Positions 23,377 through 48,117 of a DNA stretch of 64,000 nucleotides are shown here, piece after piece. Position 1 is the stretch's first letter; the number at the start of each line of letters is the position of its first letter. Source of the DNA: Verrucomicrobium sp. GAS474. Lineage in GTDB: Bacteria; Verrucomicrobiota; Verrucomicrobiia; Methylacidiphilales; GAS474. The notes under the pieces were generated by a model. It searched no databases and had not been told where the DNA came from. It saw only the letters and a list, made by a program, of their open reading frames with translations. The position numbers and the translations under genes were made by a program. Location of the stretch: the NCBI RefSeq assembly GCF_900105685.1, contig NZ_LT629781.1:1-64000 (forward strand), written 5' to 3'.

Positions 23377-24444
23377 TCAGAGTAGAACTGCGGTTCCAGG
23401 TTTTTTGGACGCGGCGCGCACTTTGGAAGCGAGAAGGGCCTCGCCATTACCGACGAGGATTTGACGCCGTTCGTGGGAGCTAAGGTCGGCCTCCTCGACG
23501 GCGCGCAGGTTCGGCGCGATATCGACGAGCGGGTAGTCGCTGCCGAAGAGGAGCCGATCGGCACCGAAGGTCTCGGCGGCCAGGGCGAGCGCCCGGGGGC
23601 CGCGCCCGACGACGCCCGTATCGAGGTAGACGCGCCGAAGCGCCGAGCGGGGGTCGGCAGGACCTTGGCCGCTGCGATGGGCGTAGTCCTCGATTCCCTC
23701 GACCAGGAAGGAAATAGATCCGCCGAGCATGGCGATCTGGATGGTCACGTCGGGGTAGGGCTTCAGAAACCCAGTGAGCGTCAGGGTAAAGATCGCTCCC
23801 GCGAATTGCGTGTAAGAGTCGAGAAGCCAGCGCTGCCGCCCCGGCTCCTCGAGCCCCGCATCGGGGAATCGAAGCTGTCCCGGGATCGCAGGGCTCGCAG
23901 GGCCGGTGTGGAGGTAGAGATGGCTGCGGCACCGCTGCGCCACTTCAAAGATGGGGGCGAGCTTTCGCGCGCCTTCCAGCGTAAAGAAGGCGCCGACGGG
24001 AAGCGTGGCTCCGAGGAGGCCGAGCTCCCGATGGGCCCGCTCCAGTTCGACGGCGGCCCATTCGATATCGGAAGTCGGAAGGATGGCGAGGCCGAGGAGG
24101 CGGTCGGGATGCGCCTCGACGAGGGCGGAAAGATCCTCGTTGTAGGCTTTCCACAGGGGTTTCGCTTCCTCGGCGGAAAGGAGGGCGTCGGTCCCCAGCG
24201 TCGTCGGCCACGAGATCACCTGCCGCTCGACGCCCGAGGCGTCGAGGCGCCGCAGCCTTTCTTCGACGGAGAGGAAGCCGAGGGCGATGGGAAGCTGCGC
24301 CAGCCCGATGCCGCCCTCGCGCGAGAGGAAGAACTTCTCCCCCTTCTCGTTCTCCACGATACGCGGCACGCGCGTACGGCGGGAGAAGAGCTCCACGACG
24401 CGCGGGGAGAACCAGTGATTGTGCCAATCGACGATGCCGGCCAT
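23377..24444 (-). CDS. Metal-dependent amidohydrolase (ACMSD-like family)
   Basis: A 355-residue TIM-barrel amidohydrolase: WHNHWFSPRVVELFSRR at the N-terminus gives the His-x-His metal motif, LYLHTGPASPAIPG a further metal-binding His, and LLFGSDYPLVDIAPNL the conserved Asp. The family contains decarboxylases and hydrolases of ring-cleavage products. It is the last gene of a three-gene operon with a flavin monooxygenase and an LLM monooxygenase, so it probably handles the desulfurised carbon product or an intermediate. The precise substrate is unknown. It lies 18 bp after the LLM gene. Confidence 0.8.
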   Translation of the reverse strand: MAGIVDWHNHWFSPRVVELFSRRTRVPRIVENEKGEKFFLSREGGIGLAQLPIALGFLSVEERLRRLDASGVERQVISWPTTLGTDALLSAEEAKPLWKAYNEDLSALVEAHPDRLLGLAILPTSDIEWAAVELERAHRELGLLGATLPVGAFFTLEGARKLAPIFEVAQRCRSHLYLHTGPASPAIPGQLRFPDAGLEEPGRQRWLLDSYTQFAGAIFTLTLTGFLKPYPDVTIQIAMLGGSISFLVEGIEDYAHRSGQGPADPRSALRRVYLDTGVVGRGPRALALAAETFGADRLLFGSDYPLVDIAPNLRAVEEADLSSHERRQILVGNGEALLASKVRAASKKPGTAVLL

Positions 24445-24462
24445 GCGACGCTCCTTCCCCGA

Positions 24463-25575
24463 TCAGGCCGAAGCGGCCTCGAGTTCCCGATAGGAGATGT
24501 CGCTTCGCTTCTTGAGGATCGAATGGACGCGGGGGACGACTTCGTGGATGAACCGCTCCTGCTCCTCGAAGAGAGGGGAGAAGGAATGGAGGAACGTGGT
24601 GAGGCCGACGTCGTAGAAATCGACGATGCGCTGCGCCACGTAGTCGTAGCTGCCGATGAAACCGGCGGCGGTGCCGCCCCCGGCTCCGAGGCGTCGGGCG
24701 TCGCCCTCCTTGGGACGCTTGGCAACGTGCTGGGCTTTCGGGTCGATGAGTTCCCGGCGACGGGTCTCCTCGACGAGATCGACGGTCCCGAGGCGCGCCT
24801 CGAGCGAGGCGACGAATTCCTTCGCCTCCTTGTCCGTGGGCCGCGCGCCGACGAAACCGGCGATGCCGAAGTCGAGCGGCCTTCCGCTGCTGCGGGGACG
24901 CCGGGCGATATCCCGCACCAGCTCGGCGGCCTCCTCGAGCGGACGGCCGCGGGTGAGATGGGTGTCGACGAGCTCGGCGGCGAGATCGCGCGAGGGCTCC
25001 GATTCGCCGCCCATGTAGATGTAGGGCCGCTTCCGGTGAATCCCGGCGGGACGCAGCGTGTAGTCGGTGACGTTGAAGCTCTCGCTCTGGTAATTGACGG
25101 TCTTTCCCTCCATGAGGTCTCGGACGATGCGGAGCCACTCGCCGCCGTAGGAGTGCCGGACACCGTGCTCGAGGAAGCCGATGCCGGAGTTGACGAGCTC
25201 GGGCTTCGACCAGCCGTTGATGAAATTGAGGGCGAAGCGTCCGTTGCTGATGTCCTCGATGCCGAGGGCCATCTTCGCCAGGACGCAGGGATGGTAGAGG
25301 AGGGGTTTGATGGCCGCGATGATCTCGATCTTCGAGGTGACCGCCGCCGCGGCCGCGCAGGCCGTCCAGGCTTCGAGGACCTCGCTCTCGTGGTTGCCCG
25401 AGGCGCCGATGGTGTGCTGCGCGAAGAGAACCGACTCGAAGCCCAGTTTCTCGGCATGGAGGACGACCTGTTTGGAAAGCTCGAAACGGGCCTCGCGGCG
25501 CTCGCCGGGACCGTAGACCCAATCGCCGGAGTGGGGTGCCCAGATGCCGAAACGGGGAAGTCTTCTGCTGCTCAT
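24463..25575 (-). CDS. LLM-class FMN-dependent monooxygenase (SfnG/SsuD/DszA-like)
   Basis: A 370-residue TIM-barrel enzyme starting MSSRRLPRFGIWAPHSGDWV. Motifs such as AEKLGFESVLFAQHTIG, KPLLYHPCVLAKMALGIEDI, SNGRFALNFINGW and GFLEHGVRHSYGGEWLRIVR match FMNH2-dependent monooxygenases for sulfonates and sulfones. They cleave C-S bonds or oxidise sulfones using FMNH2 and O2. It has the length of SsuD/SfnG (about 360-380) rather than DszA (about 450). It lies 40 bp after a flavin monooxygenase gene and 18 bp before the amidohydrolase. The start at 25575 is the first with a matching N-terminus. An FMN reductase is not found nearby. Confidence 0.88.
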   Translation of the reverse strand: MSSRRLPRFGIWAPHSGDWVYGPGERREARFELSKQVVLHAEKLGFESVLFAQHTIGASGNHESEVLEAWTACAAAAAVTSKIEIIAAIKPLLYHPCVLAKMALGIEDISNGRFALNFINGWSKPELVNSGIGFLEHGVRHSYGGEWLRIVRDLMEGKTVNYQSESFNVTDYTLRPAGIHRKRPYIYMGGESEPSRDLAAELVDTHLTRGRPLEEAAELVRDIARRPRSSGRPLDFGIAGFVGARPTDKEAKEFVASLEARLGTVDLVEETRRRELIDPKAQHVAKRPKEGDARRLGAGGGTAAGFIGSYDYVAQRIVDFYDVGLTTFLHSFSPLFEEQERFIHEVVPRVHSILKKRSDISYRELEAASA

Positions 25576-25615
25576 AATGGATGGATGAAGGGGTGGAGTG
25601 GGGGATGAATGGAAG

Positions 25616-27124
25616 TCAAACAGGCAGGGGCGCGGCGGCCTCGGCCTCGACTGCCGGATGACGCCAGATCGCGTGCTCGTACTTCGAGCGGTCGAATTCG
25701 GTCGGGCCCTTCGACGAGGGTTTCGCGTCGAGGACCTGGAACTGGTTCCGGTAATCGCTGAAGAAGAGATCGCGGACGAGGGCCGAGACGAGGCGCGGAA
25801 TCTCGTGGCGAAGGCCGGGGACATCGCCCACGGGCCGGCCGAAGCTGAGCCGCGCCGCGCCGCTCGGGGTATGGATGTTCCGGAGGTAGGGAGCCTTGCC
25901 CGGCTCCTTTTCCGTCAGCTCATAGGCGGGGCCGAGGTAGGGGAACGAGCCCATGTTCTCGGAAGCCTCGTGAACCGGGGGCCGATAGACATCGCGCCAG
26001 AGGGCGATGTCCTTGGCGATGGGCTCGAACTCCGGCCGGGTGGCCGGATCGTATTGGTAGCCGGTGCCCGCGATGGCGAAATCGAAGAGGAAGGAGCCGT
26101 CCCCGGCTTCGATGGCGACTTTTCCGCCCTCCTCGCGGACCGAGTTCCAAGGGGCGTTGAAGTGGAGGCGGAAGTTCGGAAATTTCGCCGCCCGGAGGAC
26201 CGAATCGAACGGCGTGACGGCACCGCCGCTCGTCTGCTCGAAATGGAGATGCCACCGGTCCCGGTCAGGGAGATATTGGTAGTTGTCGACCACGCCCGGG
26301 GCCGTCCGCAGGCCGCGCGCCGCGCCGCCCTTCAGCGTGCCGGCCAGGTCGGCCCGTCGATAGAAGAGATGGACCTCGGCGGCACCGGCCTCCAGGGCCG
26401 TGGCGGCGACATCGAGGGCCGAGGTGGCCGCGCCGAGAACGGCGACGTACTTCCCCCGCAACGCCTCGAAATCGATCTCATCGGCCGTGTGGGCGTAGAG
26501 GCTGCGCGGCAGGTTTCGGGAAATGATCGGCGGGACATAAGGTCCGCCGGTCCCGCTCATTCCCGTGGCGAAGACGATCTTCCGGGCGGTCTCGACCTTC
26601 TCGACGCCGTTGTCGAGGAGACGGACGCGTAGGAAGGGCTCGCCCGATTCGATCTTCAGGAGCCGGACGCGGTGCCGGACGGGAACGGCGACGATCTTCT
26701 GGTACCATTTGAGGTACTCCGCCCAATCGGTCCGGGCGATCCGGCCGATGGCGGCGAAGGCCGCCTCGCCGTGAAGCGCCTCGTACCAATATTGAAAACT
26801 CAGCTCGGGAATGCCGAGTTCGGGTCCCGGCGCGGTCTTCGGCGTGCGGAGCGTCACCATCCGCGCCCGGGTCAGCCAGACCCCGGCACCGCCTTCCTCG
26901 GCCTCGTCGATCACGCTGACGTTCGGCACGCCCGAGCGACGGAGGGCGAAGGCCGTGGCGATGCCGACCTGCCCTCCCCCGATGATGAGGACATCATGAT
27001 CGAGCCCGGCGGCGGGAAGGACCCAGTTCTGAGGATCGGCCCCCAGGACTTTCAGGGCCCGACGAGCTCCGATATCAGGGTTGCGGGGATGAAATTCAAT
27101 ATCGATGCCAGGCAGGGCGGTCAT
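25616..27124 (-). CDS. FAD/NAD(P)H flavin-containing monooxygenase-like enzyme
   Basis: A 502-residue flavoprotein with two dinucleotide-binding regions: DVLIIGGGQVGIATAFALRR near residue 45, and YVAVLGAATSALDVAATALE near residue 230, where the second Gly motif is degenerate. The end of the FAD domain reads FAIAGTGYQYDPATRPEFEP, like the ATGY motif of N- and S-oxygenating monooxygenases. It probably oxygenates a sulfur or carbon centre of the imported compound. First gene of its operon, it is divergent from the TetR gene, with possible operators in between. Start at 27124 lies just after A/T-rich promoter DNA. Confidence 0.8.
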   Translation of the reverse strand: MTALPGIDIEFHPRNPDIGARRALKVLGADPQNWVLPAAGLDHDVLIIGGGQVGIATAFALRRSGVPNVSVIDEAEEGGAGVWLTRARMVTLRTPKTAPGPELGIPELSFQYWYEALHGEAAFAAIGRIARTDWAEYLKWYQKIVAVPVRHRVRLLKIESGEPFLRVRLLDNGVEKVETARKIVFATGMSGTGGPYVPPIISRNLPRSLYAHTADEIDFEALRGKYVAVLGAATSALDVAATALEAGAAEVHLFYRRADLAGTLKGGAARGLRTAPGVVDNYQYLPDRDRWHLHFEQTSGGAVTPFDSVLRAAKFPNFRLHFNAPWNSVREEGGKVAIEAGDGSFLFDFAIAGTGYQYDPATRPEFEPIAKDIALWRDVYRPPVHEASENMGSFPYLGPAYELTEKEPGKAPYLRNIHTPSGAARLSFGRPVGDVPGLRHEIPRLVSALVRDLFFSDYRNQFQVLDAKPSSKGPTEFDRSKYEHAIWRHPAVEAEAAAPLPV

Positions 27125-27315
27125 AAAGTTAGTATTTAAACTATCTTTTAAGTAGATTACTTAATTTTGTAAACATATATTTATTAAAATACGAATGTAA
27201 AGAGAGCGAGAGATGCCAAAAGCAAGCTCTGTCGTTAGAAATGACAATCAAAAGAATGTCGTCTACTCGCTTTTTGAGTGGATTTCCTGGCAGATGGAGG
27301 TCATTGTTCACCCAA
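27125..27315. promoter_or_regulatory. A/T-rich divergent control region with two inverted repeats
   Basis: TAGT-N6-ACTA at 27130-27143 lies just before the monooxygenase start, and a perfect 17-bp inverted repeat TTAAGTA-GAT-TACTTAA lies at 27148-27164. The region is strongly A/T-rich against the ~66% GC genes. These are plausible TetR operators and promoter elements for both directions. Confidence 0.6.
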
Positions 27316-28011
27316 ATGTCGGAAAATAGCGAACTGCCTGAAGTCAAGCCCAAGAAAACTGACCCGCGCATCGTCCGGACCAAGCAACTTCTCTCGCAGG
27401 CCCTCACCGGCCTCTTGGGAGAAGGGTGCTTCGAGGACATCACGATCCAGGACATTCTCGAACGCTCGACCGTGAACCGGGCGACGTTCTACGCCCACTT
27501 CGAGGACAAGGACACCCTCCTTCACTTCACCCTCAGCACCCTCTTCGAGCGGATCCTCCACGAGCGCCTGGCGCCCAACGCGGTGGCGGGCGAGCGGAAC
27601 CTCGAACTCCTTCTCCTCGCTCTCTGCGACTTCTTCGGCCATCTCGCCCGCTGCACGAAGCTCCGCACCGTCCAGGCGAACCCGCGCGTCGAAGCGGCGA
27701 TCAAGCCGATCGTCCACAACGTCATCGCCGGCTGGTTCCGCCATCATCCCCAAGGCGGCTTCGACGCCGCGATCGAGGCCTCGACGTTAAGCTGGATGAT
27801 CTGCGGCTCCGCGATCCAGTGGCACCGCTGGAACCGGGAGCACGAACCCATCCCGGCCAATACGTTCGTCAGGAAGATGCTTCCCGCCCTCCTGCTCCGC
27901 ATGGAGCCCCTCCTCGGACGCGTCTCGCCGCGGCCCCCCGCGCAGAGTGACCGCATCCTTCCCGCCCTGGGCCTTCAGTACGCCTACACCGACGAATCGG
28001 GCATGATCTAA
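27316..28011 (+). CDS. TetR-family transcriptional regulator
   Basis: A 231-residue regulator if it starts at 27316 (MSENSELPEVKPKKTDPRIV); an upstream ATG at 27241 would add 25 residues. The DNA-binding domain is KQLLSQALTGLLGEGCFEDI, TIQDILERSTVNRATFYAHF then EDKDTLLHF, the classical TetR helix-turn-helix with YAHFEDK. The C-terminal part is a helical ligand-binding domain (TFVRKMLPALLLRMEPLLG). It is divergent from the monooxygenase operon and near the receptor gene, so it likely controls the sulfur island in response to a substrate or sulfur status. The usual sulfur regulators CysB or SfnR are not in the window. Confidence 0.88.
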   Translation: MSENSELPEVKPKKTDPRIVRTKQLLSQALTGLLGEGCFEDITIQDILERSTVNRATFYAHFEDKDTLLHFTLSTLFERILHERLAPNAVAGERNLELLLLALCDFFGHLARCTKLRTVQANPRVEAAIKPIVHNVIAGWFRHHPQGGFDAAIEASTLSWMICGSAIQWHRWNREHEPIPANTFVRKMLPALLLRMEPLLGRVSPRPPAQSDRILPALGLQYAYTDESGMI

Positions 28012-28244
28012 ACGGGCTCTCCGCCCGTCGCTCCGTCGTCCCCCCTCCTTGGATGCATCGCATCCATCCATATATTCTATAATTTCTATATATTTTAAAG
28101 ATTATGCGTTGACATCCTGAGCGAAACCGATAAGCCATTCAAACTGAATTTTTGTTTATAAAGATCTATTTGTATTGAACCACCACCTTATTGAACAAAC
28201 CTCGGCCTCACCACGTCCCGGCCTCCAGCAATCCTAGAAGAAAC
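28012..28244 (+). promoter_or_regulatory. A/T-rich leader of the TonB-dependent receptor
   Basis: No gene. A TTGACA hexamer occurs at 28109-28114 with no clear -10 at ideal spacing, and a TTTGTTTATAAA word at 28151-28162 that recurs before the PEP-CTERM gene at 22094-22105. The ATG at 28245 has an upstream GAAGAAA purine tract as ribosome-binding site. Confidence 0.45.
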
Positions 28245-30500
28245 ATGAAGCCCAGATTGAAGACCCTCGCAGCGGTCGGCCTGTCGGCCCTCCTCTGCAT
28301 GCACGGCCAGGCATACGGCCAAACCGCGCCTGCCGCCCCCGCCCAGCCCCCCTCGACGAGCGCCGATAGCGCCGGCGAAAAGAAGAAAGACTCCACGAAG
28401 CTCGATACCGTCGTCATCGTCGACAGCGACCTCACCCCCGTCGATGTCGCCGCCCACGATCTCCTGGCCACGCCCGGGGCCACCAGCCTCATCCGGCAGG
28501 AGGATACACTCAAGGGCCGCACCTCGAACCTTGCCGACACGCTCCGGCTCCAACCCGGCGTCCTCGCCCAGTCGAACAACGGCGGCGAGCAGACGCGCCT
28601 CTCGATCCGCGGCTCCGGCATTTCCCGCGGCCCCTCGATGGTCCCCCAGGGCATCCAGTACCTCATCAGCGGCCAGACCGTGAAGAGCGCCACCGGCTAC
28701 CCGATCACGGCCCCCCTCGAGGCTTGGGCGATGAACTACGTCGAGGTCTACCGGGGCCAGAGCGCCTTCGCCGAGTACGGCCCCCTGACGGTCGGCGGCG
28801 CGATCAACTTCGTGACGAAGACCGGCTATGATGCCTCGCCCTTCGCCGTCCGCTCCGAAGTCGGCAGCGACGGCTACTTCAAGGAACAGGCCAGCTCCGG
28901 CCTGGTGAGCGGCCCGTTCGACTACTACGTCAGCACCTCTCACCTCGACTACGACGGCTATCGCGACCACTCGCGCAACTCGACGACGCGGGCCATCGCC
29001 AACGTCGGCTGGCAGGTCACGCCCGACTTCTCCACCCGCCTCAACGTCGAGTGGAGCCAGGAGGTCCAGCAGAATCCGGGCAACCTGACGCTGAACCAGC
29101 TGACGCGGAATCCCCAGCAGAGCGCGACGCCCACCTACGTCCCCCTGCGGAAGGACCCCGAGGGAGTCCAGGTCATCAGCAATTCGACGCTGCGGATCGA
29201 CAACGATTCGACGCTCTCCTGGGGCGGCCTCCTGCAGAAGACGCCGAACAACAATCCCGGCACGCCGACGAATTCGAGCGAGTTCGACCAGTATGCCGCC
29301 AACGGCAACGCCCACTACAAGCGGACCGACCTCCTCTTCGGCGACCTGGAGAGCCACTCGACGCTCACCGTCATCAACAACAACGTCCTCCCCTCCGACG
29401 TCCGCTACATGAACTCGGCCGGGGTGACGACCTCGAAGACCTACTACTCCGGCAACGATGCCGCCGTGGTCCTCAACGAGGACTTGCAGGTGCTGCCGAG
29501 CTTCTGGATCACCCCCGGGATCGCCGGCCTCTACTCCCATCGCGGCGCCCACGCCGACGTGATGTCGACCAGCGGCCGCATCAACGTGAACCGGGATTAC
29601 TTCGACTTCGCCCCGAACCTCGGCCTCCGCTACGAGTTCACCCCCCAGAGCCAGGTCTACCTCAACGCGGGGCGGACCGTCGAGGCCCCCTACCAGGGCG
29701 CCTTCATCCAGACGACGGGCGTCACCTCGACACCGAACAACGCTCTCTACCCGAAGGAACAGGTCTCCGACACGCTCGAACTCGGGACGAAGGGGAGCGA
29801 GGGGATCTTCCAATGGGACGTCGCCCTCTACCGGTCGTGGATCGAGCACGAACTGCTCACCTTCCTCGTCGCCCCCGGCACGACGAACACGGCCACGGCG
29901 ACGCTCAACGGGAACCAGACGATCCACGAGGGCGTCGAATTCGGCCTCGGCACGATCCTCTGGCACGAGGACGCGCCCGCCAAGGGCAAGGGTGCCCGGG
30001 ACCGCGATCCGAAGAGCGGCCCGCAGCCGCAGGAAGACAAGCCCTCCTCCCTCTGGGCGGAGCAGCCTGACGACCACCGCGCCCCGCACCGGCTGATCCT
30101 CCAGCAGGCCTATACCTACAACCACTTCTACTTCGACAACGATCCGGTCTACCAGAGCAAGTCGATCGCGGGCATTCCGGTCCACGTCTATCAGGCCGAA
30201 TTGCGGTATGAGCATTGGAGCGGGTTCCATGTCGGCCCGACCGTCGAGTCGACCTTCGTCCACTACGCGGGGGACTTCGCCAACACGGTCTTCGCTCCGG
30301 CCTATACCATCTACGGCCTTCGGGCGGGTTACACTCCCCCCGGCCAGAAATGGGAGATCTTCTTCCAGGCCGACAACCTGACCGACAAGACCTACGTTTC
30401 CGTCACCTCGCCGATCCCGAACGCCAAGGGCATTGACAGCGCCCTCTACGCCCCCGGCGCGGGCCGCAACGTCACCGGCGGTTTCTCGTTCTCCTTCTAA
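28245..30500 (+). CDS. TonB-dependent outer-membrane receptor
   Basis: A 751-residue receptor. The signal peptide starts MKPRLKTLAAVGLSALLCMH and ends around HGQAYGQ. The plug domain has DTLRLQPGVLAQSNNGGEQT and RLSIRGSGISRGPS, and the mature protein ends in GGFSFSF with terminal Phe, as required for BAM. The barrel is in the middle. Receptors of this FecA/sulfate-ester or sulfonate type take large or scarce compounds across the outer membrane using TonB energy. It lies within the sulfur island, between the TetR gene and the DszB-like gene, and three ExbB/ExbD/TonB units lie 13 kb away. A terminator follows. Confidence 0.93.
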   Translation: MKPRLKTLAAVGLSALLCMHGQAYGQTAPAAPAQPPSTSADSAGEKKKDSTKLDTVVIVDSDLTPVDVAAHDLLATPGATSLIRQEDTLKGRTSNLADTLRLQPGVLAQSNNGGEQTRLSIRGSGISRGPSMVPQGIQYLISGQTVKSATGYPITAPLEAWAMNYVEVYRGQSAFAEYGPLTVGGAINFVTKTGYDASPFAVRSEVGSDGYFKEQASSGLVSGPFDYYVSTSHLDYDGYRDHSRNSTTRAIANVGWQVTPDFSTRLNVEWSQEVQQNPGNLTLNQLTRNPQQSATPTYVPLRKDPEGVQVISNSTLRIDNDSTLSWGGLLQKTPNNNPGTPTNSSEFDQYAANGNAHYKRTDLLFGDLESHSTLTVINNNVLPSDVRYMNSAGVTTSKTYYSGNDAAVVLNEDLQVLPSFWITPGIAGLYSHRGAHADVMSTSGRINVNRDYFDFAPNLGLRYEFTPQSQVYLNAGRTVEAPYQGAFIQTTGVTSTPNNALYPKEQVSDTLELGTKGSEGIFQWDVALYRSWIEHELLTFLVAPGTTNTATATLNGNQTIHEGVEFGLGTILWHEDAPAKGKGARDRDPKSGPQPQEDKPSSLWAEQPDDHRAPHRLILQQAYTYNHFYFDNDPVYQSKSIAGIPVHVYQAELRYEHWSGFHVGPTVESTFVHYAGDFANTVFAPAYTIYGLRAGYTPPGQKWEIFFQADNLTDKTYVSVTSPIPNAKGIDSALYAPGAGRNVTGGFSFSF

Positions 30501-30644: not shown

Positions 30645-30681
30645 CAAAAAAGCCCGGACCCCCTCTCGGGAGTCCGGGCTT
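30645..30681 (-). terminator. Terminator for the DszB-like gene
   Basis: On the minus strand the stem AGCCCGGAC / GTCCGGGCT is followed by TTTTTT, 19 bp after the stop at 30700. It separates this gene from the convergent receptor gene. Confidence 0.85.
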
Positions 30682-30699
30682 TCGCTGCGCTACTTCAGC

Positions 30700-31797
30700 T
30701 TAGAAGGAACGGTGCGCCTTCTCGAGGTAGCTCGAGTCGGCCCACTTGGCGATGTCGACATTGCCCTTCTGGTAGCCGTGCTCGCGGAGGAAGTCCTGCT
30801 GGAGGCCGATCGCGGCCAGGTTCAGCGGCGAGAGCGACGGGACGAAGTCGATATCGGCGATGAGCTGCTCGATCAGCGCCGGGTTCTCGCTCGCGGTGAC
30901 GCGGGTGAAGATCTCGGCCGCGGCGGAGCGATGGGAGTTGGCCCAGCGTCCGGCGCGGATCGAGGCGCGGAGGAACGCGACGACGACCTCGGGATGTTCC
31001 TTGGCGAAGGGCGTGCTGACGGTGATCGGATACGGCCCGTTGGCCACCTGGAGTGTCCAGTCGGGACGGCGGGAGAGGTCCTCGATCACGGTGTATTCAC
31101 CCGTGTTGACGAGGACTTCGGCGCGCGCCGCGTTGACGTAGAGGGCGTCGATCTTGCCGTCGCGCAGGGCGAGGACTTCCTTGTCTTCCAGAACGGGGTT
31201 CTGGCGGCGGCGAACCGGCCAGACCTCGGACGGCTTGTTCGCGACCGGCAGATTGAAGGCGTCCGCCTCGTCGAGGTCGACGAGTTCGGCGTCCTTCGCC
31301 GAGAGGTCCGCCAGCTCGAGGGCCAGGAGAATGCCCCGGTGGGAAGTGGCGCGATGGAAGTCGACCTTGCCGCTGTTCAGGCTGCGGAAGAGGCCGATGC
31401 GGCGGCCCTTGAGATCGGCGATGCGGCGGATGCGGGAAGCGCTCTTCACGACGATGACGCCGCCGCGCTGACCCCAGGTGAGGCCGACGAGGGTGGTGTC
31501 GGAGAGGTCGGCCTTCGCCTGGAGCGGCGGGATCGCGCCGCCATCGCGAAAGAGGTTCGGGAGGCTGTGGGTGAAGTGGGGCAGGAAGCCGTGGTTGTTC
31601 TTGAGGGAACGGAGGTAGATCGCCTGGGCTCCGGCACGGGCGAATTCTTCATCGAACCAGCCGAGCTCGACGGCGATATTCGACGCCGTGAAGACAGGGC
31701 AGATCGTGTAATAGGCCTCGGTCAGGGACTGGGGCTGGGAATTGGACTTCGCGGGCACGGAAGTCGATTTGGGGGCTTCGGCAAGAGCAATGCTCAT
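30700..31797 (-). CDS. DszB-like sulfinate desulfinase (ABC solute-binding fold)
   Basis: A 365-residue protein, the same length as DszB, without a signal peptide (MSIALAEAPKSTSVPAKSNS), so it should be cytoplasmic. From memory of the DszB sequence, its active-site residues Cys27, His60 and Arg70 align here with Cys33 (TICPVFTAS), His74 (LPHFTHSLPN) and Arg84 (LFRDGGAIPPL), and the His-to-Arg spacing of 10 is kept. Other matches include LVGLTWGQRGGVIVV, IADLKGRRIGLFRS, GRWANSHRSAA and VDIAKWADSSYLEKA. DszB converts 2'-hydroxybiphenyl-2-sulfinate to 2-hydroxybiphenyl and sulfite; the substrate here may be another aryl or alkyl sulfinate. It has its own A/T-rich promoter region and terminator. 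Confidence 0.82.
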   Translation of the reverse strand: MSIALAEAPKSTSVPAKSNSQPQSLTEAYYTICPVFTASNIAVELGWFDEEFARAGAQAIYLRSLKNNHGFLPHFTHSLPNLFRDGGAIPPLQAKADLSDTTLVGLTWGQRGGVIVVKSASRIRRIADLKGRRIGLFRSLNSGKVDFHRATSHRGILLALELADLSAKDAELVDLDEADAFNLPVANKPSEVWPVRRRQNPVLEDKEVLALRDGKIDALYVNAARAEVLVNTGEYTVIEDLSRRPDWTLQVANGPYPITVSTPFAKEHPEVVVAFLRASIRAGRWANSHRSAAAEIFTRVTASENPALIEQLIADIDFVPSLSPLNLAAIGLQQDFLREHGYQKGNVDIAKWADSSYLEKAHRSF

Positions 31798-31924
31798 GGG
31801 ATGATCCTTTTGTTACTTGTTGGTTTTCTGTTGATTACATCTTATTCATTGTAATCTATAGATTTCATATATTAAAATTCGTCCAGAGACTTGTCAATAC
31901 TTTGTATTAAAAGTGTACAAATAT
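31798..31924 (-). promoter_or_regulatory. A/T-rich gap upstream of the DszB-like gene
   Basis: The gap between the solute-binding gene and the DszB-like gene is strongly A/T-rich. It contains a perfect 12-bp palindrome AATCTATAGATT at 31853-31864 and a purine tract just before the start codon. A separate promoter for the DszB-like gene is likely; exact boxes not resolved. Confidence 0.5.
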
Positions 31925-33016
31925 TTAGTTTTTACCGAGAGAGGCCGATTGACCCTCTCCGACCAGCGTCCAATAGCCGTCGAGACCGAGGTCCTTGATC
32001 GCCTGCCTTTGATAGTCGGGCTTGATGAACCAAGTCCGCAAGACCGCCTCGTCAACCTTGGCTTTGACCAATTTGTGCTCGGCGGCGAAGGCAATGCCGT
32101 CGCGGAACGTCTGGAGGGAGAGGTCATCGAGGAGCGGGTTGAAGCGTTCCTTGAGCGGCCCCTCGAACTCCCGGGGCACGAACGCCGCACCGGCGCTGCG
32201 GGCCTGGAGGAAAGCGAGGAGGGGGGCGCGGTTCTCCTCGCGGGAAGCCCACGCGGCGGTCTTGACGAGGACCTTGATGACACGCCCGGTCGTCTCGGGA
32301 TGGGCCTTCTCGAAGCGGTCAGTGACGAGGGTGCCCCAGGTGCTCGCCTCCTGCTTGTGATCGTCGGGACTCTCGAGGAGGCGGGCCTTGCCCTGGGCCT
32401 CGAGGGCGAGGATGTTCACCCCGCCGAAGACGGCATCGACGGCCCCGGCGTTGAAGGCGGCGAGAGCTTCGGGGGTCGAAAGATTCGCGATGGTGACGTC
32501 CTTCTCCTCGATGCCGTGCCGCTTCAGGACAAGGATGAGGATCTGGTAGTAATTCGTCCCCTTGTGGATGGCGATCCGCTTGCCGCGCAGGTCGTCGACG
32601 GTCTTGATCGGGGAATCGGGACGGACGGCGATGTCGGTGACGTTCCCCGCGCCGACGGAGCGCTTCACGAGGACGATCTTGGCCGGAACCTTGCCGGTGA
32701 GGCCGATGACGATCGGGATACCGCCGCAGTTGGCGAAATCGAGGTCGCCCTGGGCCAGGGCCTCGTTTTCGGCGATGCCCGTTCCGGCATAGAAGGTCTG
32801 GACGATCTTCGGTCCCTGCGGGCCGAACTCCTCGTCCCAGTAGCCGAGCTGCCCCGCCAAGGCGACGAGGCTGGTCCCGCTCAGCTTCCCCTCGGGCTCC
32901 TTGACGAAGGGAATCGCCATTTCGCCGAAGCGGATGGTTTGGGGAAGATCCTCGGCAAAGACCGGAAGAGCCGCGGCGGCAAGAAGGAGAAGGGTTGAGG
33001 AAAAAAGGGCTTTCAT
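31925..33016 (-). CDS. ABC transporter substrate-binding protein, NitT/TauT (sulfonate) type
   Basis: A 363-residue periplasmic binding protein with a signal peptide (MKALFSSTLLLLAAAALPVF). The mature part reads LPQTIRFGEMAIPFVKEPEG, LAQGDLDFANCGGIPIVIGL and VDDLRGKRIAIHKGTNYYQI, as in SsuA/TauA proteins. It delivers sulfonate-, sulfone- or sulfinate-like substrates to the permeases encoded directly upstream. In contrast to the DszB-like neighbour it has a clear export signal and lacks the Cys-His-Arg set. It is the last gene of the operon that starts with the DszC-like gene. Confidence 0.85.
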   Translation of the reverse strand: MKALFSSTLLLLAAAALPVFAEDLPQTIRFGEMAIPFVKEPEGKLSGTSLVALAGQLGYWDEEFGPQGPKIVQTFYAGTGIAENEALAQGDLDFANCGGIPIVIGLTGKVPAKIVLVKRSVGAGNVTDIAVRPDSPIKTVDDLRGKRIAIHKGTNYYQILILVLKRHGIEEKDVTIANLSTPEALAAFNAGAVDAVFGGVNILALEAQGKARLLESPDDHKQEASTWGTLVTDRFEKAHPETTGRVIKVLVKTAAWASREENRAPLLAFLQARSAGAAFVPREFEGPLKERFNPLLDDLSLQTFRDGIAFAAEHKLVKAKVDEAVLRTWFIKPDYQRQAIKDLGLDGYWTLVGEGQSASLGKN

Positions 33017-33054: not shown

Positions 33055-33831
33055 TCAGGCCGAGACCCGTCCGGCGAAAAGTCTTCGGGAAAGAAGCCGA
33101 AGGAGGCCGTTCACCCCGAGGCCCGTGAGGGCAATGGCGATGATGCCGAGGAGGACCACGTCGGTCCGCATCTCCTCCCGCCCCTTCATGACAAGGGTGC
33201 CGATGCCCGTGGTGAGGCCGCCGATGAGGTACTCGGCGCCCACGGTGGCGAACCACGAAAAAATGAGGGCGAGCTGGAGGCCGGTGAAGATCGCCGGAGC
33301 GGCGGCGGGCAGAACGATCCGCCATAGGAGGCGTCCCCGGGAGAAGCAGAGAACCCGGCCAACCTCGACATAGGACGAGGGGACGTTCTTCACCCCCTCG
33401 AAGGCCCCCATCGCCACGGGGCCGAAGGCGGCCAAGGCGACGAAAACGATCTTCGAGAGATCGCCGTTGCCGAACCAAGCGGTGAGGAGAGGGATCCACG
33501 CAAAGATGGCGACCTGCCGGAAGGCGTGAAAGCCGGGGCCGAAGACTCGGTCGGTGAGACGGGAGACACCGAGGCCGACGCCGAAGAAAAGCCCTCCGGC
33601 GATCCCGATGGAGGCCCCTTCGGCGAGGCGCAGTCCGCTGGCGGCAAGGCCGTCGAGAAGTGCCCCGCCGATGGCGGGGTCGGCGGCCGCCCGGAAGAGA
33701 GCGGGGAAGGAAACGAGGACGAGCGGGCCGACCCATCCGAGAGCAACGGAGACCTGCCAGAGGCCGAGCAGGAGCGCCACGGGAACAAGACCGCGAACGA
33801 ACGGATGGCGCAGGGCGGCGGCGGGGCTCAT
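33055..33831 (-). CDS. ABC transporter permease, TauC/SsuC type
   Basis: A 258-residue membrane protein with about six helices and the cytoplasmic coupling loop MGAFEGVKNVPSSYVEVGRV followed by WRIVLPAAAPAIFTGLQLAL, the EAA-type motif of sulfonate/nitrate permeases. The start overlaps the stop of the other permease (ATGA at 33828-33831). Two different permease genes suggest a heterodimeric channel, whereas TauC/SsuC are usually homodimers. Confidence 0.88.
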   Translation of the reverse strand: MSPAAALRHPFVRGLVPVALLLGLWQVSVALGWVGPLVLVSFPALFRAAADPAIGGALLDGLAASGLRLAEGASIGIAGGLFFGVGLGVSRLTDRVFGPGFHAFRQVAIFAWIPLLTAWFGNGDLSKIVFVALAAFGPVAMGAFEGVKNVPSSYVEVGRVLCFSRGRLLWRIVLPAAAPAIFTGLQLALIFSWFATVGAEYLIGGLTTGIGTLVMKGREEMRTDVVLLGIIAIALTGLGVNGLLRLLSRRLFAGRVSA

Positions 33832-34709
33832 GCTGCCTCCCCCTTCCAGCGAAGGAGCCGGGCCTCGGCCCGACGGAGGCCGAAATCGAACAGGAATCCG
33901 ACGAGGCCGATGACGACGATGCAGACGAATACCTGGTCAAGCTGGAAGATCTGCCTCCCCCACGACATGAGGTAACCGATTCCCTCCGTCGAGGCGAGGA
34001 TCTCGACGGCGACCAGGGAGACCCAGACATGGGAAAGCCCCTGCCGGATGCCGGTAAAGAGGGAGGGAAGAGCCCCGGGGAGGATCACCCGGCGCAGGAT
34101 CGTCCGGCGGCGGAGGCGGAGGACCTTCCCCACCTCGATGTATTGGACGGGGATGTTCCGGATGCCGTCCGACGAGGTGAAGGTGATCGGGATGGCGCAG
34201 GACTTCGCCATGATGAAGAGCTTGAGGGCCTCGTCGATGCCGAGGAACTGGATGAGGAGCGGGATGAGCGCGATCGAGGGGATCTGCGCGATGGCCCGGA
34301 AAAGGGGGCCGATCCAGCTTTCGACCACCGGAGAAAATCCCATGGCGCAGCCGAGGACGAGGCCGATGCTCCCGCCGAGCAGGAAGCCCTTGAGGACGCG
34401 GAGGAGGCTCGTGCCGAGATTCGAGAGGAGATCGCCGCCGGAGATGAGGTCGGCGAAGCTGTGGGCGACGGCGACGGGGGACGGGAGGATGTTCGGGGGA
34501 AGCCATTCCCGGGCCGACGCCAAGGACCAGATCCCGAGGACGAGGAGCGGGACGAGAAAACCGAGGCCCGGCGCGGAGGCGATGCGCTCCCACCGATCCG
34601 CCTTCCGCCTCCTCCGGGGACGGGAAGCCGTCGTCGGGGCGGGACCGAGACGAACGGGCTCGGGCTGCCGCGGCTTTGTCAGGGTCTGTTCCAAGGCGGG
34701 AGCGTGCAT
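33828..34709 (-). CDS. ABC transporter permease, TauC/SsuC type
   Basis: A 293-residue membrane protein. A basic N-terminal tail of about 45 residues precedes membrane segments such as GLGFLVPLLVLGIWSLASAR; the coupling motif is RNIPVQYIEVGKVLRLRRRT then LRRVILPGALPSLFTGIRQG. With the next gene it probably forms the membrane channel of the importer. It starts 14 bp after the ATPase stop, so it is part of the same operon. Confidence 0.88.
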   Translation of the reverse strand: MHAPALEQTLTKPRQPEPVRLGPAPTTASRPRRRRKADRWERIASAPGLGFLVPLLVLGIWSLASAREWLPPNILPSPVAVAHSFADLISGGDLLSNLGTSLLRVLKGFLLGGSIGLVLGCAMGFSPVVESWIGPLFRAIAQIPSIALIPLLIQFLGIDEALKLFIMAKSCAIPITFTSSDGIRNIPVQYIEVGKVLRLRRRTILRRVILPGALPSLFTGIRQGLSHVWVSLVAVEILASTEGIGYLMSWGRQIFQLDQVFVCIVVIGLVGFLFDFGLRRAEARLLRWKGEAA

Positions 34710-34723
34710 GGCCCTCGGTCTCC

Positions 34724-35572
34724 TCAAATTTGGTAAATGCCCTTCGCGGGCGGGGGTTGCGGCGTCCGCGTGAGGTGGAGCAACTCCGCGAGGACGCGAT
34801 GGCGGATCTCGGCAAAGGCCGAATCGATCCGGTTCCGGGGATGGGGGAGATCGACGGGGATCACCCGCTCGATGCGTCCGGGCCGGGGGGCGAGGATGAC
34901 GATCTTGTCGCTCAGGAAAACGGCCTCCTCGACGTCGTGGGTCACCATGACCATCGTCACCCGCTCCTGCCGCCAGATGCGGAGAAGCTCGTTCTGGAGG
35001 TAGGTTCGGGTGAGGGAATCGAGCGCGCCGAGGGGCTCGTCGAGGAGGAGGAGTTCGGGCTGCGCGACGAGCCCCCGGGCGATGGCGGCCCGCTGGGACA
35101 TGCCGCCGGAGAGCTGGCGCGGGTAGGCCCGCTCGAACCCGGCGAGGCCGACGAGGGCGATGTGCTCCTGGACGGTCCGCGCCTTCTCCTTCTCCGGAAT
35201 GGGGAAGGCATCGAGGGCCAGCGCGACGTTCTCCTCGACGGTGAGCCACGGCAGGAGCCGGTGTTCCTGGAAGACGAGACTCCGTTCGAGGCCGGGCCCC
35301 GCGATGGGACGGTCGTCGAGGAGGATCTCCCCGTCGTAGTCGTCGTCGAGGCCGACGATGAGCCGGAGGATGGTCGACTTGCCGCAGCCCGACGCCCCGA
35401 CGAAAGTGACGAACTCGCCGCGGCCCACGGTGAGATCGATGCCGCGGAGGACTTCGAGGTCGGCCCCATCGACCCGGTAGCTCTTGCCGACGCCGCGCAA
35501 CTCGAGGGATCCTCCCTTCTCGCGCGCGGGCGCGGAGGAAGGGTCGGTCAGGACTTGCGAAATATTCCCCAT
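34724..35572 (-). CDS. ABC transporter ATPase, TauB/SsuB type
   Basis: A 282-residue ATPase with Walker [20 protein letters not shown]-loop [20 protein letters not shown], signature [16 protein letters not shown], Walker [13 protein letters not shown] and the switch His [17 protein letters not shown]. The family is nitrate/sulfonate/taurine importer. It powers uptake by the two permeases downstream. Only 11 bp separates it from the DszC-like gene, so oxygenation and import are co-expressed. Confidence 0.93.
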
Positions 35573-35583
35573 CGCGGCTCTCC

Positions 35584-36828
35584 TTAGAGAAACGACCCCG
35601 TCCCACCGACGACGCCGTTGAGGGCATAGTCGCCGACCCCCTTCACGAGGTAGATCACGGGGTTGTGGAGGCTCAGGGTCCGGATGTCCCGCCAGTAGCG
35701 GTCGAAACCGTGGCGGTTGGCCGTGGCTCGCGCCCCAGTGACGTCGTAGATCCGGGAGGTGACGTCGAGGCCGGCCTGGGTCGCGAAGGCCCGCAGCGCC
35801 GAGGCGCGGACGCCGACCTCGCCGACTTCCCGCACGCTGACGGAGCCGCGACGATCGAAGGCGTCCTGGATTCCGGCGGCGGTTTTCTCGAGGAGGGCCT
35901 GGGCCGCTTCGAGCTGAATCCAAAAATCGCCGTAGTCGGCGAGGATGTAGGGGTCCTTTGCCGCGCTGTCGGAACCCGAACCCCGCCGGGCGCGCGTGGT
36001 GGAGAGCGTGTACTCGCGCGCCTGCTCGAGCGCCCCGAGGGCCGCCCCGATATGGTTCGCCCCCCAGAAGAGGGAGGTCAGCGCGACGTAGAGAGGCGGG
36101 AAGCCGAGGACGGGTTCGCCGAGCGTCGACGGGATGACCTCGTGGGGCTTCACCTCGACGTGATCGAAGTCGATCGTCTGCGTCTCGGCGAGGCGGAGGC
36201 CGAGATGGTCCCAATCGTCGTGAAAGAGGAGCCCCTCGCGGGTCGGCGGGACGAGGGCCCAGAGGAGCTCGTTCCGGTCGGTCCGCCGGGCGAGGACGGT
36301 GCTCACGTCGGCGAGGGAGAAGCCGGTCGACCATTCCTTGCGCCCGTTGAGGACGAAGCTTCCGTTCGGCAGCGGGGCGGCGGTGAAGTCCTTGACCCGG
36401 GAGGGCTGGTGCGCGTTGCCCCAGAGCCAGCGGTTCTCGGCCGAGGCCCGCTCGATCCGCTCCGCGCCGCCCTCGGGATCGTAGAGCCGGGGGACGGAGG
36501 AGGCATAGAGGTGGAAGGCGAGCAGCGCCCCGAGGCCGGGATCGCCCTTGCTGAGTTCGACCACGACGCGGGCCGCCTCGCCGAAGGTCGCGCCGAGGCC
36601 GCCGAATCGCTTGGGAATGAGCAGATTGACCAGCCCCGTCTCGCGAAGCTGCCGCAGCTCGGCAACGGGCAGCCGTCCCTTCCGCTCACGCTGGACGGCA
36701 GTTTGCCTCCACTCGGCGGAAAGCTCCCGGGCGAGATCGATCCAATCCTTGGTCGGGCGAGAAGGGAGAACCGGAAGAGGGACGCCGGGGTTCTTGGCCG
36801 GAGTCGGGATAGAGGCGGAAAGCGACAT
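35584..36828 (-). CDS. DszC/SfnC-like flavin monooxygenase of the acyl-CoA-dehydrogenase fold
   Basis: A 414-residue protein (DszC has about 417). Compared with the DszC sequence I remember, the match is good along its length: LARELSAEWRQTAVQRERKG, LLIPKRFGGLGATFGEAARV, LNGRKEWSTGFSLADV, AREYTLSTTRAR, KDPYILADYGDFWIQLEAA and GFDRYWRDIRTLSLHNPVIY. DszC oxidises dibenzothiophene with FMNH2 and O2 to the sulfone. In the C-terminal motif, DszC RTHSLHDP appears here as RTLSLHNP, keeping one His and losing the other, so the substrate may differ. It has no CoA-dehydrogenase base in the usual place. First gene of the ABC-transporter operon, next to an A/T-rich control region. Confidence 0.82.
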   Translation of the reverse strand: MSLSASIPTPAKNPGVPLPVLPSRPTKDWIDLARELSAEWRQTAVQRERKGRLPVAELRQLRETGLVNLLIPKRFGGLGATFGEAARVVVELSKGDPGLGALLAFHLYASSVPRLYDPEGGAERIERASAENRWLWGNAHQPSRVKDFTAAPLPNGSFVLNGRKEWSTGFSLADVSTVLARRTDRNELLWALVPPTREGLLFHDDWDHLGLRLAETQTIDFDHVEVKPHEVIPSTLGEPVLGFPPLYVALTSLFWGANHIGAALGALEQAREYTLSTTRARRGSGSDSAAKDPYILADYGDFWIQLEAAQALLEKTAAGIQDAFDRRGSVSVREVGEVGVRASALRAFATQAGLDVTSRIYDVTGARATANRHGFDRYWRDIRTLSLHNPVIYLVKGVGDYALNGVVGGTGSFL

Positions 36829-36910: not shown

Positions 36911-38749
<1,839 letters not shown>

Positions 38750-38768
38750 GAGAAGGAAGGAAAGAGCG

Positions 38769-40109
38769 TCAGAGGTGGGGGATCGCCTTCACCTCGTGCA
38801 GGGGGCCGAGGCGGCGGAGCCCCGGGGAGAGCCGCATCACGGCGGCGACGGCAAGGAAGGTTCCCACGCCCCCCAGGACGATCGAGGGAACCGTTCCGAA
38901 GAGGCGTGCCGCGAGGCCCGACTCGAATGCGCCGAGTTCATTCGAGGTGCCGACGCAGAAGAAGTTGATCGCCATGATCCGCCCCCGCATCACCTCGGGA
39001 GTGATGTATTGGATCAACGTCTGCCGGATGACGACATTGATGTTGTCGAAGACGCCGGTGAGGACGAGCATGGCAAAGGAAAGCCAGAACGAGGTCGAGA
39101 AGCCAAAGACGATCACGGCGAGCCCGAACCCGACGACGGCAAAGAAGAGGACCCGGCCCGAGCGCCGCCACGGAGGGAGGTGGGTCGTCACGACCGCCAT
39201 CGCCACGGCACCGAAGGAGGGCGCCGCCCGGAGCCAGCCGAAGCCCTCGGGACCCGCATGGAGGAGGTCCTTCGCCACGACGGGAAGAAGGGCCATGACG
39301 CCACCGAAAAGAGTCGCGAAAAGATCGAGGCAGGCCGCCGCGAGAAGGAGGCGGTTCTTGAGGATAAAGCGGAAGCCGCTGAGAAGATCGTCCCACTCCC
39401 AGGAGACTCCGGCCACCCCTCCCGCGGTCAACCCGGGCTGCTCCCGCAACGGGAGCGAGGCGAAGAGCGGGATGCAAAGGAGGGCGCATCCGGTGGTGAG
39501 GAAGAAAACCGGCGTCGCCGAGCCGCTGAAGGCGATGATCGCGCCGCCGAGCGCCGGTCCGATGAGGCCGCTCAGCTCGATCAGGGTGCTCGTCCACGTC
39601 GTCGCGTTGGCCAGGCTCTCGCGCGGGATGAGGAGCGGGACGAGCGAGGAAACCGCCGGGAGGGCGAAGACCCTTCCCAGGGCCATGACGAAGAGAATCG
39701 GGTACATCCAGACGGGAGGCCCGCCGAGGAGCGAGAGGAGCCCGAGCGCGAGGGAACAGCAGAAGAAGATCGACTGCGAAACGAGGAGGATTTTCCTCCG
39801 GTCGAGCCGGTCGGCGAGGTGGCCCGCCGGGAGGACCCCGAAGAAGACGGGAATCACCTGGACGAGGCCGACGTAGGCCAAGGCCATCGTCGTTCCGAAC
39901 CGCTCGTAGACGAGCCAGCCGATGGCGGCCACCTGCATCTGATTCCCCACCTGAAAAAGGAGCCGGCCACCGAAGAAAAGGCGATAGGAGCGGTGCCGGA
40001 ACGCGAGATAGGGGTCGCGGTCCGGAGGGGAGGAAGGCAGAGCCGGCATGGCAACCGGGACGGCGTCGGGAGCTTCAATGTTCACCGCACCCACTCCGCA
40101 CCGCACCAT
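38769..40109 (-). CDS. MFS exporter (EntS-like)
   Basis: A 446-residue transporter with 12 predicted helices. Characteristic parts are FRHRSYRLFFGGRLLFQVGN, GHLADRLDRRKILLVSQSIF (the MFS A-motif loop) and PALGGAIIAFSGSATPVFFL. It resembles enterobactin exporter-like members. The start could be further inside (GTG near 40080) because the first residues are not conserved. The gene overlaps nothing and lies 19 bp before the ABC exporter, so the two exporters are probably in one unit, divergent from DUF5069-ribBA. Confidence 0.85.
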   Translation of the reverse strand: MVRCGVGAVNIEAPDAVPVAMPALPSSPPDRDPYLAFRHRSYRLFFGGRLLFQVGNQMQVAAIGWLVYERFGTTMALAYVGLVQVIPVFFGVLPAGHLADRLDRRKILLVSQSIFFCCSLALGLLSLLGGPPVWMYPILFVMALGRVFALPAVSSLVPLLIPRESLANATTWTSTLIELSGLIGPALGGAIIAFSGSATPVFFLTTGCALLCIPLFASLPLREQPGLTAGGVAGVSWEWDDLLSGFRFILKNRLLLAAACLDLFATLFGGVMALLPVVAKDLLHAGPEGFGWLRAAPSFGAVAMAVVTTHLPPWRRSGRVLFFAVVGFGLAVIVFGFSTSFWLSFAMLVLTGVFDNINVVIRQTLIQYITPEVMRGRIMAINFFCVGTSNELGAFESGLAARLFGTVPSIVLGGVGTFLAVAAVMRLSPGLRRLGPLHEVKAIPHL

Positions 40110-47957: not shown

Positions 47958-48034
<77 letters not shown>

Positions 48035-48117
48035 CCCCTTTTTTTCGGACGGCGAGAGCGGAAAGACCCCCCCGCTTTCCTCTTCCCTTTCCCCCGTTCC
48101 TCGTTAGCGTTTGGGGC

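Follow-up and report, generated by a model that had tools for sequence, protein, structure and literature searches.

A DszB-family protein, probably a sulfinate desulfinase, in a sulfur-sparing gene cluster of Verrucomicrobium sp. GAS474

In biological fuel desulfurisation, the slow step is that of DszB, which, to our knowledge, has been treated as a near-unique cofactor-free desulfinase. In the DNA of Verrucomicrobium sp. GAS474 (NZ_LT629781.1, positions 1 to 64,000; this whole stretch of 64,000 nucleotides is called the window), a protein with similarity to DszB is encoded within the operon of a sulfonate-type ABC importer, which raises the question of whether it is a solute-binding protein of that importer or an enzyme. 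From its sequence and structural model, the protein is best read as a DszB-family sulfinate desulfinase that works in the cytoplasm without a cofactor, within a gene cluster for sulfur scavenging that sulfur starvation probably induces; we put the probability of this reading at about 75%. The region contains the following genes and sites.

23377 to 24444, minus strand: amidohydrolase (PF04909)
24463 to 25572, minus strand: luciferase-like (LLM) FMNH2 monooxygenase, nearest to SfnG/SsuD, of the C-S bond-cleaving class
25616 to 27124, minus strand: FAD-dependent monooxygenase-like protein, sulfur-depleted
27241 to 28011, plus strand: TetR-type regulator
28191 to 30500, plus strand: TonB-dependent outer-membrane receptor, sulfur-depleted
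30647 to 30683, minus strand: strong terminator-type hairpin and T run, just 3' of the DszB-like gene
30700 to 31797, minus strand: DszB-family protein, 365 aa, ATG start (by sequence search, alignment and fold)
31848 to 31897, minus strand: a pair of overlapping sigma70-like promoter matches, 31897-31869 and 31875-31848, in the gap between the SsuA-like gene and the DszB-like gene
31925 to 33016, minus strand: exported SsuA-like solute-binding protein with signal peptide, MKALFSSTLLLLAAAALPVFA (SsuA_fam match below cut-off)
33055 to 33831, minus strand: ABC permease, SsuC/TauC type
33828 to 34709, minus strand: second ABC permease, SsuC type
34724 to 35572, minus strand: ABC ATPase, nitrate/sulfonate/taurine class
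35584 to 36828, minus strand: DszC/MsuC/SfnB-class flavin-dependent monooxygenase, 414 aa
42833 to 45387, minus strand: ExbB, ExbD and two TonB-like proteins (TonB_C and MotA_ExbB by Pfam; ExbD and the second TonB from sequence)

The genes on the minus strand between 36828 and 30700 appear to form a single operon. The genes up to the SsuA-like gene overlap or lie at most 38 bases apart, and the 127-base gap between the SsuA-like and DszB-like genes holds a TTGACA-17-TAATAT match; four promoter-like sites were found in the region against 0.5 expected. The hairpin at the 3' end has a folding energy of -37.3 kcal/mol (60-nt stretch) with a z of -5.3. The first gene product of the operon, the 414-residue monooxygenase, matches DszC (4doy, E=9e-71) and MsuC (6u76, E=1e-67) in the PDB. 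The cluster is larger than the operon, with further members to the left at 23377-30500, and the ExbB/ExbD/TonB set likely energises the TonB receptor. No flavin reductase is present in the cluster and those found are elsewhere in the genome, where sulfite/nitrite reductase domains are located at ~86 kb and 1262 kb. In two genomes of the same order, relatives of the amidohydrolase gene immediately precede DszB-family genes. Two candidates were rejected: 47977-50043, considered as a second TonB receptor, is a K+ transporter, and 23461-25608 on the plus strand is a shadow ORF, lying opposite the LLM and amidohydrolase genes. Ahead of the operon, in the same orientation, are genes for an MsbA-type ABC exporter and an MFS exporter (window 36911-40109), whose normal Cys and Met content (3-4%) suggests that they may stand outside the starvation response.

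The best PDB matches of the 365-residue protein are the DszB structures 2de2 and 2de3 (phmmer, residues 28-360, E=1e-12 and 1.7e-11), followed by partial matches to NrtA/SsuA with E values of 0.007-0.03. A preceding sequence-only reading had proposed a DszB homologue in which Cys33, His74 and Arg84 take the places of DszB Cys27, His60 and Arg70, and the phmmer alignment with 2de2 agrees: Cys33-Pro34 lies opposite Cys27-Pro28, HFTH opposite HFTY, and RDGGAIPPL opposite RFGGEIPPL, which also sets Gly87 at Gly73. Thr31 corresponds to Ser25, and Cys33 stands in an [ST]-x-C-P context after the first strand. His74 stands 10 residues ahead of the arginine of the RXGG motif (Arg84, Gly86-Gly87), exactly the spacing in DszB, as had been claimed. 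According to the account in PMC6100217, citing Lee et al. 2006, Cys27 of DszB is essential, H60Q causes a ~17-fold loss and Arg70 variants are insoluble; the same account includes Ser25 and Gly73 in the site model and describes RXGG as conserved in DszB homologues. The equal length that had also been pointed out is real, both proteins having 365 residues, but it is a coincidence, because DszB makes up for its shorter Cys-His loop with an insertion further on.

The AlphaFold2 model (pLDDT 93.1, pTM 0.89, 45-row alignment) shows the type-2 periplasmic-binding fold nearest to DszB, and above all to its substrate-bound form, so that the comparison of folds came out in favour of the sequence-only reading. 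Foldseek ranked 2de3 and 2de2 first, with DszB at ranks 1-3, and the VIA-align Z scores were 32.0 for the DszB-substrate complex, 30.5 for apo DszB, and 25.8 and 24.4 for SsuA. The model and substrate-bound DszB superimpose with an rmsd of 2.7 over 318 residues (VIA-align). In DszB, the loop 55-62 turns helical and swings His60 inwards only upon substrate binding (PMC6100217). The corresponding segment of our model is a helix at 71-76 that bears His74, as in the substrate-bound form.

The same fold class, however, also includes ordinary binding proteins, and a solute-binding protein of the adjacent sulfonate ABC transporter, its export signal lost or cryptic, would suit a gene inside a transporter operon whose product matches Pfam NMT1 and, weakly, the SsuA family (NCBIfam SsuA_fam, 64.5 bits with a cut-off of 163.5). 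The exported SsuA-like neighbour is likewise under this cut-off (126.6 bits, E=1e-36). Public plasmid relatives of the window protein do carry the name 'ABC transporter substrate-binding protein', the annotation that had been foreseen for it. We nevertheless regard a binding-protein role as very improbable, and a binding protein with a missed signal was rejected. The highest 12-residue hydropathy before Cys33 is 0.55, in line with the claim that a signal peptide is lacking; 21 exported binding proteins, which include E. coli SsuA and TauA, those of GAS474 itself and those of related operons, mostly reach 1.5-2.7 on this scale, and the two that are lower probably have wrong start calls. By hydropathy, no export signal was seen in the relatives examined either. 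A separate, truly exported binding protein of the SsuA family adjoins at 31925-33016, also as predicted, and most related loci have one. The sequence-only reading would have failed if the protein clustered among periplasmic SsuA-like proteins that all had the site residues; the Cys, His or Arg of the site occurs in none of the 21. SsuA and TauA, which bind aliphatic sulfonates, share the overall fold (VIA Z 20-26) and a distant sequence kinship with the window protein, but they are exported, have no Cys/His/Arg site and stand apart in the tree, where the window protein groups with DszB. In VIA-align it scores 6 Z units better against DszB than against SsuA.

For the conservation analysis, 83 sequences were aligned; they came from plasmid relatives, from genomes of the order to which GAS474 belongs and from a collection of 84,980 species genomes. 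In the scan of the genome collection, a single-protein query returned no relatives and a tight four-row alignment returned 58 loci. Cys33 is kept in 80 of the 80 sequences in which the position is present, His74 in 80/83, and every one of the 83 has Arg84 and Gly87. Of the two patterns applied in the 84,980-genome scan, one includes the Cys, but the plasmid set is without such bias, and Cys33, Arg84 and Gly87 are also low-entropy in 14 relatives found without any Cys-containing pattern. A chance match of the His-Arg pair was rejected, since Cys33, Arg84 and Gly87 are among the lowest-entropy columns of the 83 relatives. Three proteins lack the His: two from a single genome of the order and one paralogue on a Sphingobium plasmid. 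A DszB-family branch with Cys and Arg and without His was seen at two loci (L010:1474-2586 and L015:1429-2520), and the L010 gene is directly preceded by an amidohydrolase gene related to window 23377-24444.

In a quick maximum-likelihood tree with several long branches, all 64 DszB-family rows stand apart from the 21 binding proteins (SH-aLRT 99), and the window protein groups with DszB, outside SsuA/TauA-type proteins. The homology claim is thus borne out by sequence, fold, site conservation and tree, and the protein counts as a new DszB-family member rather than as an orthologue of DszB itself. It falls within an 11-row set (SH-aLRT 99) of Verrucomicrobiota and Pseudomonadota, and this patchy distribution suggests transfer. 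Matches occur in 5 of the 62 genomes of the order, with none in the two other genomes of its genus. We found in the literature no assay for any member of the clade.

The window protein and DszB have in common the fold, the Cys/His/Arg/Gly site, the His-Arg spacing, the RXGG motif, the single Cys and a DszC-class partner. With its DszC-like neighbour and full catalytic set, the protein could be taken for a DszB orthologue that acts on 2'-hydroxybiphenyl-2-sulfinate in the dibenzothiophene (4S) pathway, but several differences make this hardly credible. A long branch separates DszB from the clade of the window protein. The dszABC gene set of DszB proper (EC 3.13.1.3) is incomplete: a DszC-class enzyme is present, but the gene lies in a sulfonate-importer operon without a DszA-class gene, no DszA-class (NtaA/DmoA) enzyme is found in the window, and the LLM enzyme, of SfnG/SsuD class, matches DszA only with E=1.4e-7 over 96 residues. 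The Cys-to-His distance is 41 residues in the window protein and 33 in DszB, and 33 recurs only in a Mycobacterium plasmid relative. The eight-residue insertion of the sequence-only reading therefore exists relative to DszB, but it was rejected as a special trait of the window protein, because 40-41 residues are the rule in nearly all relatives and DszB is the short exception. In the pocket, Tyr63 and Gln65 of DszB are replaced by His77 and Leu79, in addition to Thr31 for Ser25; His77 is found in 78/83 relatives, and mutation at the Tyr63 position alters DszB activity (PMC6100217). With an identity to DszB of 24-26% over the fold, the His77 and Leu79 changes argue for another substrate, and 2'-hydroxybiphenyl-2-sulfinate is unlikely to be the natural one.

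A desulfinase in such a setting is not new in kind, because two precedents exist. In the case of Gordonia terrae C-6, the BdsA desulfinase belongs to a bdsABC operon beside a sulfonate ABC transporter (PMC3868597). BdsA resembles the window protein in its context: it is a diverged desulfinase whose genomic neighbours are a DszC-class enzyme, a monooxygenase and an ABC transporter of the sulfonate type; unlike it, the proven context of BdsA is benzothiophene in an actinobacterium. In IGTS8, a chromosomal protein with the authors' double name 'SsuA/DszB' (IGTS8_peg4802) appears, in a table of PMC8557817, among the proteins raised on dibenzothiophene, and SsuA, SsuB and SsuD are listed there with close numbers.

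The cluster proteins are strikingly poor in sulfur. Leaving the start Met aside, the DszB-like protein has Cys33 as its single sulfur-containing residue and the DszC-like protein has none; the TonB receptor has 7 Cys and Met in 768 residues. Together, six soluble cluster proteins contain 0.55% Cys and Met, and the genome reference is 2.47% (139 genes in 12 evenly spaced GAS474 regions). Seven cluster proteins, chosen after the trend had been noticed, average 0.61%, and none of 20,000 random draws from 103 genes of at least 250 aa was as low. DszB itself is reported to have one Cys and no Met (PMC8557817), and exactly one Cys is present in 26 of the 32 proteins of the window protein's clade. 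A Cys that is kept where nearly all other sulfur atoms have been purged is probably needed for catalysis, an argument for Cys33 that is drawn from sequence and independent of structure.

Low Cys and Met content could also serve to find sulfur-starvation genes in the GAS474 genome. Two other SsuA-like proteins and the second DszC-like enzyme of the genome have 0.0% Cys and Met. At ~1402-1409 kb (L124:4426-11363) lies a second sulfur-depleted cluster. Its two SsuA-like proteins lack Cys and Met apart from the start residue, and it also encodes a closer DszC-like enzyme (322 bits) and one that is SsuD-like. The two random genes lowest in Cys and Met encode SBP_bac_11 solute-binding proteins, and they may be linked to sulfate, as this family includes sulfate-binding proteins. 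Two SBP_bac_11 proteins and a neighbour nearly without Cys and Met are encoded at ~1802-1805 kb (L117:2272-5478), perhaps a locus for sulfate or thiosulfate uptake.

Another possibility is that the window protein is an enzyme with other chemistry, for example a decarboxylase, or a C-S lyase on a sulfonate, in which Cys33 is used differently. The fold is also found in Thi5, MqnA/MqnD and 4,5-dihydroxyphthalate decarboxylase, which catalyse other reactions; the second histidine, His77, is almost invariant in the family and is Tyr in DszB; and in a sister clade the site is retained without sulfur depletion and with different gene neighbours. We consider such chemistry unlikely, since Thr31, Cys33, His74, Arg84 and Gly87 equal the DszB set residue by residue, including RXGG, the neighbours and the sulfur-sparing composition indicate organosulfur use, and DszC/SfnG-class flavin enzymes are able to make sulfinates.

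From the homology, fold, site, lack of an export signal, gene order and composition in hand, we infer the activity of the window protein as a desulfinase, the order of steps and the substrate class. An organosulfur compound would cross the outer membrane via the TonB receptor and the inner membrane via the SsuA-type importer, and the DszC/MsuC-class and SfnG/SsuD-class flavin monooxygenases would turn it into a sulfinate by oxidation and cleavage of one C-S bond. The DszB-like protein would then close on the sulfinate, with Thr31, Arg84, Gly87 and His74 holding the substrate and Cys33 giving the proton (or thiol) that replaces the sulfinate, and the freed sulfite would enter cysteine synthesis through a sulfite reductase encoded elsewhere in the genome. 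Because DszB is thought to protonate an aromatic carbon (PMC6100217), the analogy favours an aryl or vinyl sulfinate over a simple alkyl sulfinate. SfnG of Pseudomonas and Acinetobacter yields methanesulfinate, which MsuC oxidises onward to the sulfonate (PMC13352529); a desulfinase could shorten this route.

The enzyme type is known, but the DszB relationship points to a far broader family that is often misnamed, and this breadth and the sulfur-sparing signature are what add interest. Tentatively, and with somewhat less than even confidence, the window protein may represent a large, mostly unrecognised desulfinase family acting on natural sulfinates from SfnG/DszC-class monooxygenases, which would give many bacteria a sulfone-to-sulfinate-to-sulfite route bypassing sulfonates, and the sister clade in many phyla may have kept the site for a use unrelated to sulfur starvation. 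As such genes are named as transporter parts, models of sulfur cycling built from genomes would overlook sulfinate cleavage. The diverse relatives that share the site could also help to obtain faster enzymes and to decide the disputed mechanism (proton donation versus thiol attack), and some belong to named isolates, such as Herbaspirillum autotrophicum, Ancylobacter, Pseudomonas helleri and Uliginosibacterium aquaticum.

Of 20 loci from the window protein's clade, 19 have an ABC ATPase gene and 15 a permease gene related to those of the window, and four have an LLM enzyme of the DszA class, as counted by tblastn because gene calls in some high-GC loci are frame-wrong. Some loci carry two to five tandem DszB-family copies: an Opitutaceae MAG (VE3) has five between permease and ATPase genes (L033:4649-10191), and another locus (L032) has four. 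The sister clade (clade B: L047-L066, L069-L088, L018 and L019) occurs in many phyla and keeps Cys-His-Arg-Gly. It is Met-rich, with a median of 3 Cys and 15 Met, and has ABC importer neighbours in 0/40 loci; its genes are often near those for CoA-disulfide reductase-rhodanese, SulP, rhodanese, MarC and a sigma54 activator. In Rhizobium leguminosarum ATCC 14479 (L018:7451-12879), the clade B gene is flanked by two genes of 2-hydroxyacyl-CoA dehydratase type on one side and two activase genes on the other, and this set is followed by rhodanese and sulfate permease genes.
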